Shown: one piece after another, positions 22,650 through 26,294 of the stretch
How positions within the stretch are numbered: position 1 is the stretch's first letter
Layout: each line of letters begins with the position of its first letter
NCBI GenBank assembly: GCA_947359465.1
Contig: OX375875.1
Coordinates: forward strand, 54,493,583 to 54,557,582
Reading direction: 5' to 3'
From: Metellina segmentata
Taxonomy: Eukaryota > Arthropoda > Arachnida > Araneae > Tetragnathidae
Length of the DNA: 64,000 bases
Made by a program: the position numbers and the translations under genes
Notes under the pieces: generated by a model
Seen by the model: the letters and a program-made list of their open reading frames with translations, nothing else
What the model was told of the DNA's origin: nothing
Databases searched by the model: none

Positions 22650-23017
22650 TGTAAGATTCGTGTTGTTCTGTTTGGTAAGGTCTATATTAAAGACTTCGAA
22701 TCTTACAGCACATTGACATTTAATGAATAAATATATACAATTATTATGTACAGTTGAGTTATATTTTAAAACAGTTCCGTCATTATCTGTAGCAGTCGTC
22801 TCTGCTCGGAAAAAATACGTCAGCTCTCAATGGCGTCCAGGGAAAAAAGTGTCTGTTCTATTAATTTTCTCGTAACTGAATACCGGAATGTGAATGGCTC
22901 GTGACAGTCTTGCCTTGCATTCCTACTACAATGCAACTGACTCCTACCAGTCTCGTTGCTCTTATAATGAGTTCTTTCCAGACTAGTAGACAACTACCGT
23001 TGTCTAGTATTCCTACA
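22650..23017 (-). mobile_element. 3' LTR of the Gypsy element
   Basis: Near-identical partner of 25927-26294. The purine-rich minus-strand sequence GAGGACGAAAGATCATCAGG just inside (about 23025-23045) is a candidate polypurine tract. Confidence 0.9.
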
Positions 23018-23112
23018 ACCGGCCATCCTGATGATCTTTCGTCCTCGAAAGGAACACGACAAACCTAAAAAAAAAAACACAAAACAGTATCTGGGAATAC
23101 ATTGATTCAGTA

Positions 23113-23592
23113 TTAGTTATTGAACCACGACTTCATATGGTCAGCTGCTGTCGACGTCAAGTTCGGTCCTTCATGGTTTCCAACTTTCTCAACGTCATAG
23201 CGATCATGGGGTTTCACTTTCTTCACTCGATATGGTCCTAAGAATTTCGGTCGTAATTTCATTCCGACACCAAATTGAGTCCGCTGAATAGCAATAAGAT
23301 CGCCCTCTTTGTATTGATGAGGTTTCTTCCTCTTCTTATCGTACGTTCTTTTATTCTCTTCCTGAATTTTTAGGATATTCTCTTTGGCATCGTCTCTTAA
23401 TTTCTTCCTCTTCTCTAGAAAAACTTCAGTATATTCTTCTTCTAAAAGCTGGACTATCTTGAGATCTTCTTTGTTTCGCATTTTCACACCTGTCAAAAGT
23501 TCGAAGGGTGTCCATCTTGTGCTTCTGGAGGTTGTACTATTGAGTATTCTTTGTACGGCGTCAACGTTTAAAGCATTTGATCGGTTCTTCAA
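23113..23592 (-). CDS. Integrase C-terminal part, shifted frame
   Basis: Continues the integrase of the preceding ORF in a different frame. RSTRWTPFELLTGVKMRNKE is the usual end of the integrase core. KKPHQYKEGDLIAIQRTQFG and KFLGPYRVKKV match the small C-terminal chromodomain-like/GPY-F module. The 159-codon track start is arbitrary. The overlap with the upstream ORF (23561-23592) marks a one-base frame change, so integrase is split. It could be mutation or, less likely, a frameshift signal. Confidence 0.75.
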   Translation of the reverse strand: MKNRSNALNVDAVQRILNSTTSRSTRWTPFELLTGVKMRNKEDLKIVQLLEEEYTEVFLEKRKKLRDDAKENILKIQEENKRTYDKKRKKPHQYKEGDLIAIQRTQFGVGMKLRPKFLGPYRVKKVKPHDRYDVEKVGNHEGPNLTSTAADHMKSWFNN

Positions 23593-25597
23593 TTGAAAGT
23601 TTGGATAACACTGGAATCAGGGTTTTGTGCATTCGTTCTACTTGTCCATTGCCTCTTGGGATTCCTGTTGTGATTTTTAGGTGTTCAATCCCGTTTTCGC
23701 AACAAAAATCTGTAAATTCTTTAGATGTAAAAGCGGATCCTCTATCCGAGATTATCCTCGCAGGATTTCCAAAACTATTTTGTTGTTGTTTGAGTTTATT
23801 TATTGCATCACCTGATGTCGTAGATTTGGTAGGATATAACCAAGTGAATTTTGTGAATGCGTCTACTACCGTGAAGATATACTGATAGTTCTTAGATGTT
23901 GAAGGTAGCGGACCTATGAAATCAATGTGATAAGTGTATAATGGAACGTCCTCTTTAGGAATTGGATTTAGAAATTTGTTATCCTCTGCTATGGTTCGTT
24001 TTGTCTCCAACTTAGTGTTTGGTTCCAGACGATTAGTTACTTCGAGATGAGTTTCGGTTTGAATTTTAGTTGAATCTGAAGTATTCGCTAAATTAACAAT
24101 TCTTGCGTAATTCACTCGAAAATTATCGCGTCTGCTCAAAACATGAATTCCGCTCTCTGATAAAGTAAGATTTAACTTATTTATGCAATCGAACCCAAGA
24201 ACAATATGATCAGGTAAATTTTTTAAAACATAAACATCAGTAACAATAATGCAGTCATCAATAATAATTTCAGTAGAAAAGAAACCTAGAGGAGAAATGT
24301 GTTCTCCTCCTATACCCATTAAAGTCACATTATCAAAACTCAATTTTGGGGATCCAATTTCAACATAAAATTCATATTTTATCATTGACACATCACTTCC
24401 TGTGTCGATTAGCGCATTAGATCTTTTCCCGCACATTTCAACATATTTTCTTAGCTTAGTACGAGAATTAAAAGGGCTATTAATTAAAGTTCTATTTACA
24501 TCTCGTTTGGGACACACGTCGGCCTTGTGCCCATAATTTTTACATTTAAAACATCTCACACCCTCAGTTTTCTTTTCACAATTTATCGACCTATGTCCAT
24601 ATTCATTGCAGTTGTAACATTTTATATGATTGGTGTTAGTTTGTTCAGGGCGCACGAAAGATCGAGGCTTTAATTTGTCAAAATCCCTATTGAAACGCTT
24701 CTTATATTTATCGTCTGATGTTTTCGAATCTCTATTGGTTTTTAAATGACATCGAGCCGCTTCATATTCGTCTAATTTATTGACGAGTTGGTCTATTTTC
24801 GTTATTTTCGGTAGCTCGTCTATAAAATGGTCTCGAACGTCATTGGGTATTTTTCGTTTTAGTTGATCGGTAATCACGAGTTCTTTAAGGTCTTGGTAAT
24901 TTGATACTTCCAACCCACTCGTCCATTCTTCAAAGAAATTTTTCAGATCATGAGCAAAGTCATTCCAAGTAGAAGACGCTTCTTTTCTATGCGAAAGGAA
25001 ATTTTGCCTAAATTGTTCCGGATTTAATTTAAAACGTTTCAACAATAATCTCTTGACATTTTCATAGTCATTAGCCTTTTCGTCAGGCTCACGCGTGATA
25101 AGATTAGCCAAATCCAATGGGAGTAAACCCAACAAATGTGTAACCCATTCCGTTTTTGCTATTTCGATACGACTAATCTGTCTTTCAAATAAAGTTAAAT
25201 AACAGCTAATATCCTTATTCGTCTCGTAACGGTTAATAAATTTCAATAAATCGTTATTGTATAGGCTGGTAGTTTTACCATAACTGTTGCCTTGTCCGTT
25301 AGCAGTTTCGATTTCGAGTTTCCTTAATTCGAATTCGCGGGCTTGTTTTTCGGCTTCAATTTTCTCTGCGCGTTTTTCGGCTTCAATTTTCTCTGCGCGT
25401 TTTTCGGCTTCAATTTTCTCTTCGCGTTCAGTTCTAATAACGCTCAACAGATTTTTTGTTATCTCCTCGTCATAATTTTCAGAATCTATTATAAGTTTCG
25501 AGCACTGCGCTACTTTGGGATTCGCTGGCACTATCAGGCCTAATTCGTCAATCAATGTTAGCAAATCTGCTTTTCGGGCCTTAGTTAAATATGCCAT
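23561..25597 (-). CDS. Gag-protease-integrase fusion ORF without RT
   Basis: 678 codons. Residues about 1-100: basic/coiled N-terminus with a Glu-Lys-Ala-rich repeat (58-90). About 120-260: SCAN/capsid-like Gag region (YLTLFERQISRIEIAKTEW, LLLKRFKLNPEQFRQNF). About 322-357: two CCHC zinc knuckles, CYNCNEYGHRSINC and CFKCKNYGHKADVC. About 393: aspartic protease active site ALIDTGSDVSMIK. About 545-678: integrase core with HIDFIGPLP, ISDRGSAFTS and NGQVERMH, giving the D,D,E residues. Between protease (ending about 480) and integrase, only ~65 residues stand where Gypsy elements carry about 700 of RT and RNase H. The reading frame is open across this junction. Integrase continues in another frame after 23561, so this is probably a defective but recently copied element. 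Confidence 0.85.
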   Translation of the reverse strand: MAYLTKARKADLLTLIDELGLIVPANPKVAQCSKLIIDSENYDEEITKNLLSVIRTEREEKIEAEKRAEKIEAEKRAEKIEAEKQAREFELRKLEIETANGQGNSYGKTTSLYNNDLLKFINRYETNKDISCYLTLFERQISRIEIAKTEWVTHLLGLLPLDLANLITREPDEKANDYENVKRLLLKRFKLNPEQFRQNFLSHRKEASSTWNDFAHDLKNFFEEWTSGLEVSNYQDLKELVITDQLKRKIPNDVRDHFIDELPKITKIDQLVNKLDEYEAARCHLKTNRDSKTSDDKYKKRFNRDFDKLKPRSFVRPEQTNTNHIKCYNCNEYGHRSINCEKKTEGVRCFKCKNYGHKADVCPKRDVNRTLINSPFNSRTKLRKYVEMCGKRSNALIDTGSDVSMIKYEFYVEIGSPKLSFDNVTLMGIGGEHISPLGFFSTEIIIDDCIIVTDVYVLKNLPDHIVLGFDCINKLNLTLSESGIHVLSRRDNFRVNYARIVNLANTSDSTKIQTETHLEVTNRLEPNTKLETKRTIAEDNKFLNPIPKEDVPLYTYHIDFIGPLPSTSKNYQYIFTVVDAFTKFTWLYPTKSTTSGDAINKLKQQQNSFGNPARIISDRGSAFTSKEFTDFCCENGIEHLKITTGIPRGNGQVERMHKTLIPVLSKLSIEEPIKCFKR
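25330..25425 (-). repeat. 30-bp tandem repeat inside gag
   Basis: Three near-identical 30-bp units encode EKRAEKIEA-type decapeptides in the N-terminal coiled part of Gag. Length polymorphism is likely. Confidence 0.85.
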
Positions 25598-25903
25598 GTC
25601 ATCAAGTAAAACAAAATTCTGTACTCACAGTTTCGAAAGTTCCTTCTATCCGTCTTTTCCGTCAACTCGTCTTTTGCGTCTACGCGTTTTCTTTTTTGTC
25701 GTTTCAGTCTATCATCAGCACCACGTCAGGAGAAGTCATGAAACTGTTCTTGCAGATGATTAAAACACAAGTCCAGGTTTGCATAGGTAGTCAAAACATT
25801 CCGCCGGCCGGTTCAATCGTCACTGCTTTCGGGGTCTGCTAATCCGTCGTTCAAGCCCTCGTACGAAGGAGGAGAATCGTCGCGGTCGTCAACGGTTTTT
25901 CAC

Positions 25904-25921
25904 ATCCCGGCCGAGCCCCCA
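25904..25921 (-). promoter_or_regulatory. Primer-binding site, tRNA-Pro type
   Basis: The minus strand reads TGGGGGCTCGGCCGGGAT, five bases inside the 5' LTR. It differs by one base from the classical tRNA-Pro primer-binding site of gammaretroviruses. It would prime minus-strand DNA synthesis, so this cis element needed for reverse transcription is retained. Confidence 0.75.
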
Positions 25922-25926
25922 TTTTT

Positions 25927-26294
25927 TGTAAGATTCGTGTTGTTCTGTTTGGTAAGGTCTATATTAAAGACTTCGAATCTTACAGCACATTGACATTTAA
26001 TGAATAAATATATACAATTATTATGTACAGTTGAGTTATATTTTAAAACAGTTCCGTCATTATCTGTAGCAGTCGTCTCTGCTCGGAAAAAATACGTCAG
26101 CTCTCAATGGCGTCCAGGGAAAAAAGTGTCTGTTCTATTAATTTTCTCGTAACTGAATACCGGAATGTGAATGGCTCGTGACAGTCTTGCCTTGCATTCC
26201 TACTACAATACAACTGACTCCTACCAGTCTTGTTGCTCTTATAATGAGTTCTTTCCAGACTAGTAGACAACTACCGTTGTCTAGTATTCCTACA
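25927..26294 (-). mobile_element. 5' LTR of the Gypsy element
   Basis: On the minus strand it begins TGTAGGAATACTAG and ends CGAATCTTACA, with TG..CA ends. A TATAAGAG-type box (plus strand CTCTTATAATG region) is near 26232-26245. Plus-strand TTTAATGAATAAATATA near 26000 shows AT-rich U5/R sequence. Confidence 0.9.

Follow-up and report, generated by a model that had tools for sequence, protein, structure and literature searches.

How does a long terminal repeat (LTR) retrotransposon that has no reverse transcriptase (RT) come to carry two almost identical LTRs, and does it stand alone in its genome? The question is raised by a 64,000-nucleotide stretch of the spider Metellina segmentata (assembly GCA_947359465.1, contig OX375875.1, positions 54,493,583 to 54,557,582), hereafter called the window. 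At 22650..26294, with its coding strand on the minus strand, the window contains a 3,645-bp RT-less Ty3/Gypsy element made up of an LTR pair and an internal region. An earlier note on this DNA took it for a deletion derivative copied in trans by a full-length relative. The presence of nearly identical RT-bearing relatives and of variation shared with them supports this proposal, and we consider it very probable that the element descends from a young RT-bearing Ty3/Gypsy family of the same genome, has lost its autonomy and is spread in trans.

The 5′ LTR (25927..26294) and the 3′ LTR (22650..23017), both on the minus strand and 368 bp long, differ at two positions and align without gaps, exactly as the earlier note had counted. 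The ORF list and Pfam likewise agree with its description of a 678-codon open reading frame (ORF; 23561..25597, minus strand, ATG at 25597) encoding Gag, protease and the integrase core. Pfam recognizes the two CCHC zinc knuckles of the nucleocapsid (24494..24625, minus; residues about 325-368) and the integrase catalytic core (rve; 23678..23941, minus; residues 553-640), whose D,D(35)E residues were located by reading. The aspartic protease (24161..24442, minus; residues 386-479) carries the DTGS motif, the retroviral protease models of Pfam falling under their cut-offs. No RT or RNase H model matches the ORF at E <= 1, and the frame stays open through the deletion junction at about 23976. 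The C-terminal part of the integrase (23113..23616, minus) is held by a second frame; the break between 23561 and 23616 corresponds to the split already noticed near 23561-23592. A 27-bp tandem repeat encoding EAEKRAEKI-type units lies within Gag (25345..25428, minus) and is probably the main source of the differences in ORF length among copies.

At the junction itself (23975..23977, minus), the window element has a single base where the full-length form, in the only copy whose two sides were read, has 1,834. The net loss of 1,833 bp, or 611 codons, is in frame. It takes away the last part of the linker between protease and RT, together with RT, RNase H and the integrase zinc domain, and there is no homology between the breakpoints. 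We searched the genome (1,665,100,106 bases in 173 contigs) for the exact 45-mer spanning this junction and found 178 occurrences, the reversed control giving 0. A 251-bp junction query found matches on many contigs, and all 40 that were scored (the best 40 of 685 candidates) were 99-100% identical over its full length. The amplified RT-less subfamily that had been suspected is thus present, and the 178 exact junctions, together with the separate insertions among the copies read, place the element among the non-autonomous LTR retrotransposons that have amplified after a coding loss. The earlier note had set two outcomes against its own reading, namely a junction unique to this locus, produced by a private deletion after insertion, and the assembly collapse of a full-length element. 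No point supporting either was found, and both are refuted, their remaining probability being negligible, by the presence of the junction at many separate loci with their own flanks and target-site duplications (TSDs). Outside this genome, none of the best 120 of 403 proteins matching ORF residues 478-678 was seen with the junction, because none covers more than 79% of that stretch, and one scan of viral contigs gave no relative of the element.

The full-length parent, which the earlier note had recommended looking for, was found in the same genome. When the RT-RNase H-zinc part of a related protein was used as query, 80 matches were scored (the best 80 of 14,199 candidates), all at 63% identity; 24 of them are free of stops and lie in open frames 1,440-1,480 aa long. 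The 45-mer of the intact 3′ breakpoint occurs exactly 159 times; it lies beside 50 of the 51 scored RT matches on contigs C1-C7 (51 of the best 80), which shows RT at part of the 159 places. The numbers of deleted junctions and intact breakpoints (178 and 159) are similar, the ratio being only rough as exact 45-mers undercount both forms. Pieces of full-length copies are 98.9% identical to the window element upstream of the junction (1,026 bases, one copy) and 98.4-98.5% identical downstream of it (1,329 columns, two copies), and three pieces from two RT-bearing relatives stop matching the window element at the junction. In the 3′ piece of one full-length copy (L048), the integrase zinc domain model matches.

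These relatives also bear on the classification. The order protease-RT-RNase H-integrase is absent from the window element and is found, by position, in the full-length relatives. The assignment to Ty3/Gypsy LTR retrotransposons is supported by sequence kinship with these relatives and with Gypsy-type spider proteins, by LTR termini of the TG..CA type (TGT...ACA in the window element) and by TSDs, exact in 29 of 37 copies and lacking in the window copy. In the full-length copies, a single ORF apparently encodes both Gag and Pol. Ten of them were sampled; they have 0 to 6 differences between their two LTRs and an exact TSD in seven cases. They offer a candidate autonomous partner with the same primer-binding site (PBS) and LTR ends, the PBS variants of the two forms overlapping.

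Do the RT-less copies represent separate retrotransposition events? We read 40 of them, that is, the window copy and 39 others fetched with their flanks, and they sit at separate places, each with flanks of its own. Both LTRs are complete or nearly so in 35 copies, and at least part of both is present in 38. A stricter rule requiring two complete LTRs retained 33 copies, the other seven being excluded from the LTR counts; in these 33, the two LTRs of a copy show a median of 1 difference in 368 positions, with none in 13 cases, and the mean divergence is 0.27% within copies versus 1.7% between copies. An exact 4-bp TSD flanks 29 of the 37 copies with both ends readable, three copies without one or both outer ends being left out of this count. 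Spread at the DNA level, either by duplication or by integrase-driven, Ginger-like transposition without reverse transcription, would fit a six-copy tandem array on contig C6. It is at odds with the TSDs that most of the copies read have acquired on their own and with LTR pairs that match within a copy and differ between copies; the latter pattern also sets the element apart from Ginger-like DNA transposons. Such spread is largely refuted, and we regard it as very improbable.

Two further observations concern the places where copies are found. TATA accounts for 22 of the 29 exact duplications, a strong target preference that is often exercised within (TA)n tracts; such a tract adjoins 25 of the 37 copies, and in flanking DNA farther away (TA)n accounts for about 0.5% (451 of 91,689 bases). 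The flanks concerned are those of the copies read and, in the window, 22553-22650. Among the places listed of the 178, the array on C6 (C6:79896923-79913707) contains six copies, one per 3,348 bp, a spacing close to that of one LTR plus the internal region, and further RT-less arrays are possible. The full-length form is also found in an array, with three places at C4:69438725-69449021, one per 5,126 bp.

The relationship between the two forms is best seen in their variation. LTR divergence is practically the same among RT-less copies (1.72%), among full-length copies (1.81%) and between the two forms (1.74%). Within the RT-less copies, 273 of 435 pairs among 30 common internal single-nucleotide polymorphisms (SNPs) show all four gametes, each combination being required in at least two copies; the count becomes 496 of 861 when one LTR is included, and 767 of 1,431 with both LTRs (LTR sites counted twice). 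The mean r2 of internal sites falls from 0.49 below 20 bp to 0.15 at 20-100 bp, 0.05 at 100-300 bp and 0.03 beyond 1,000 bp. Of the common internal SNPs, 16 could be compared in four or more full-length copies, and every one of them is polymorphic in those copies with the same pair of bases. In the LTRs, 17 of 24 SNP positions (8 of 12 and 9 of 12 per LTR) also vary in full-length copies; 33 of the 40 positions (16 internal and 12 per LTR, LTR sites entering twice) are thus shared. Over the 2,153 positions covered, we found no site with a base that is present in 90% or more of the RT-less copies and missing from the full-length copies covered there.

A deletion that occurs once is initially confined to one haplotype; the presence of both alleles at many sites therefore implies later recombination with full-length copies. 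As the two LTRs of one copy agree in 420 of 428 comparisons, this recombination is placed before or during reverse transcription and not after insertion. To judge from these sequences, the deletion is apparently comparable to an allele of a Gypsy population that recombines freely, and is copied in trans. The same deletion could also have arisen repeatedly, at a template-jump hotspot or from reverse-transcribed spliced RNA, and so have come to lie on many backgrounds. The variation common to full-length copies would be accounted for in this way, and GT adjoins the 5′ breakpoint and AG the 3′ breakpoint. Precise splicing would give a different junction, and one that is out of frame, for which reason the spliced-RNA origin was rejected. 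The breakpoints have no homology. All 178 matches have the same 45 bases with the extra base among them, as an exact search requires, and nucleotide diversity reaches its minimum in the 150-bp bin of the junction (0.0003, the copies having been chosen by the same stretch). All this argues against repeated origin, which we consider improbable.

A single origin followed by spread in trans suggests the following scenario. One in-frame deletion would have taken RT, RNase H and the integrase zinc domain, leaving a Gag-protease-integrase (core and C-terminal part) polyprotein. The short RNA, with its LTRs, PBS and internal ends retained, would be packaged together with full-length RNA in particles carrying full-length Gag-Pol, copied by the full-length RT and integrated with help from the full-length integrase. 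By analogy with retroviral integrases, an integrase without its zinc domain would probably need the full-length enzyme alongside it. From known retroelement biology, co-packaging and template switching by the helper RT would be the simplest setting for exchange, and free recombination with variants common to both pools is what such a setting should produce.

Several observations weigh against this explanation. In the only full-length copy with both sides read, neither flank accounts for the single base at the junction. Exact TSDs are missing from 8 of the 37 RT-less copies, the window copy included, and from 3 of the 10 full-length copies. The 40 RT-less copies were chosen by identity to the junction stretch, so that their ages lean young, and the full-length sample consists of ten copies in pieces, the internal SNPs resting on four or five of them. 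At 7 of the 24 LTR SNP positions (the same sites counted in both LTRs), the full-length copies seen are invariant. Finally, the LTR tree, in which RT-less and full-length copies are mixed with 8 label changes against a shuffled mean of 9.2, is weakly resolved: 89 of 500 shuffles are as low, 3 changes are forced by well-supported branches and the bootstrap is unsettled.

Whether the fused ORF matters for this spread is a separate question. In 18 of the 40 RT-less copies, Gag, the junction and the C-terminal part of the integrase all lie in a single frame of 828-853 aa, which distinguishes the element from terminal-repeat retrotransposons in miniature (TRIM) and large retrotransposon derivatives (LARD), both without a coding ORF. 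In one intact copy (L040, 837 aa), the zinc knuckle, protease and rve models match, and the RT, RNase H and integrase zinc models are unmatched at E <= 0.05. Among the other 22 copies, 18 are split by frame breaks or stops and four are truncated or internally deleted. The break site in the window integrase was not found in the 39 other copies read; L021 alone among them has a frame break in the interval separating the integrase core motifs from the C-terminal part, and it lies further downstream than that of the window copy. The private character of this split among the 40 copies, the loss of the zinc domain and the variation shared with full-length copies are all additions to the earlier note. 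The window element may make working Gag and protease, as that note had supposed.

In one form of our explanation, to which we give moderate confidence, the short form is a pure parasite that spreads by its length and its complete cis signals, the ORF being irrelevant. The absence of the whole fused ORF from more than half of the copies speaks for it and, to our knowledge, the known non-autonomous LTR elements need no ORF. Against it, the ORF breaks differ in place among copies, the pattern expected if intact sources inserted copies that then decayed. A stronger form holds that the element is a semi-autonomous partner, whose fused Gag-protease-integrase protein would be useful, for example by adding Gag or by favouring its own RNA, and would keep the deletion frequent. 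The deletion is in frame, the long frame persists in 18 copies and the short form is about as common as the intact breakpoint, all of which would fit this possibility, as would the mouse IAP 1-delta-1 element, whose fusion protein helps in cis (PMC6466679). An in-frame outcome has, however, a one-in-three chance, the observed intactness is roughly what youth alone predicts (a rough estimate), and recombination refreshes the shared sequence, so that a low ratio of nonsynonymous to synonymous substitution (dN/dS) may reflect selection on full-length copies. We consider the semi-autonomous form less likely than not.

Purifying selection on the fused ORF was considered and dropped. Over the 18 fused ORFs, dN/dS is 0.42, with 14 synonymous and 11 nonsynonymous shared changes versus 18 and 56 among singletons. 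Over all 40 copies (65 synonymous versus 125 other changes, stops being scored as nonsynonymous and the Gag repeat excluded), this contrast faded to 12 and 17 shared versus 53 and 108 singleton changes (Fisher P = 0.40), both classes lying slightly above the neutral 24% synonymous (P = 0.047 and 0.012, respectively). It is, moreover, confounded by sharing with full-length copies: selection on the fused ORF is unreadable because its variants are shared with the full-length pool. Going further still, the short and full-length forms might constitute a mutually dependent, freely recombining two-form system in which the short form supplies extra Gag, protease and integrase core. On that reading, which we find rather doubtful on the sequences at hand, the one-ORF full-length form could not overproduce these proteins, and the short form would be a balanced allele, not a fading parasite.

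The cis signals of the window copy are kept to different degrees. The earlier note had listed a PBS and a polypurine-like tract as retained. The PBS was read next to the 5′ LTR (25904..25921, minus), where the 18 bases TGGGGGCTCGGCCGGGAT of the coding strand follow AAAAA at the inner end of the LTR; we take it to be tRNA-Pro-like. These 18 bases are identical in two of the ten full-length copies (F3 and F4), and the remaining eight carry variants. The tract held up less well: the stretch preceding the 3′ LTR (23018..23045, minus; GGACGAAAGATCATCAGGATGGCCGGT on the coding strand) is purine-rich and is not a canonical polypurine tract. The PBS is polymorphic in both forms, with TGGGGGCTCGGCCGGGAT and TGAGGGTTCGGCCGCGAT types, which perhaps reflects two primer tRNAs or decay. 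The window copy, which has no target duplication, lies between (TA)n on its left and ACCATACACA on its right.

Other features of the ends and of the window were noted by reading. The LTR end holds a perfect 11-bp inverted repeat, TGTAAGATTCG / CGAATCTTACA, at 22650-22660 and 22697-22707. Extra bases outside the 5′ LTR duplicate the region before the 3′ LTR: there are three in the window copy (26295-26297) and in L033, perhaps one in L030, and about 40 bp in L027 (5053-5093 of the oriented copy), with TA repeats on both sides. They look as if plus-strand synthesis had started further upstream. Elsewhere in the window (3500-3982, 5118-5600 and 20394-20954), fragments of another Gypsy element, with ORFs resembling RNase H and protease/RT, were recognized by eye, together with part of a Tc1/mariner-like transposase.

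Among known systems, the closest in mechanism is IAP 1-delta-1, a group of mouse endogenous retroviruses that has lost part of gag and pol. Its 1.9-kb internal deletion creates a novel fusion ORF; it needs proteins supplied in trans by relatives and causes most of the new insertions of its family (PMC6466679). Internal deletion and a fusion ORF are common to both cases, and so, probably, is dependence in trans. The likeness is one of mechanism only. The spider element is Gypsy by sequence and falls outside the IAP group; it has lost RT, RNase H and the integrase zinc domain and kept Gag, protease and the integrase core and C-terminal part. In wheat, the 'semi-autonomous' GAG-Pro Gypsy element RLG_Sabrina_SA has neither RT nor integrase, and its likely partner RLG_Wilma shares hardly any sequence with it (PMC9744471). 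Both it and the spider element are Gypsy elements with Gag and protease and no RT, whereas the spider element keeps the integrase core and its sampled partner pieces are 98.4-98.9% identical. Wheat RLG_Quinta, which dates back 28-35 million years and no longer has RT or integrase, is paired with RLG_Cereba (PMC11302176). Like the spider element, it is a shorter partner that has Gag and shares LTR ends and PBS with the longer one; in the spider the loss is in frame and spares the integrase core, and variation is still common to the two forms. Frequent recombination among members of one LTR family during bursts has been described (PMC5668417), whereas here the exchange runs between a deletion derivative and its full-length source.

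Other spiders have relatives of the full-length form. Gypsy proteins of Trichonephila clavipes and Araneus ventricosus (P0211, P0212 and P0226) belong to the same lineage, being 67-69% identical in the integrase core and 34-36% in Gag-protease; unlike the window element, they carry RT, RNase H and the integrase zinc domain. Further Araneus ventricosus proteins (P0015, P0021 and P0026, read in part, and P0044, P0059, P0062 and P0063, from BLAST rows) consist of Gag-protease, a short stretch and the integrase C-terminal domain only, and no RT model matched P0015 or P0021. They may be the product of splicing in the gene models, or belong to a second RT-less Gypsy family distinct from the present one. 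In the titles and abstract openings listed by searches for RT-less coding LTR elements, no Gag-protease-integrase element is named, which is not proof that none is in print. We file the present element as a non-autonomous Ty3/Gypsy derivative with a different retained set, namely Gag, protease and the integrase core and C-terminal part.

A coding RT-less form, a nearly identical pool of helpers and exchange between them are thus brought together in one assembled genome. This makes trans-mobilization, co-packaging and the success of a deletion form countable, copy by copy, as allele frequency, linkage and insertion success. It also apparently provides an invertebrate Gypsy counterpart to IAP 1-delta-1.

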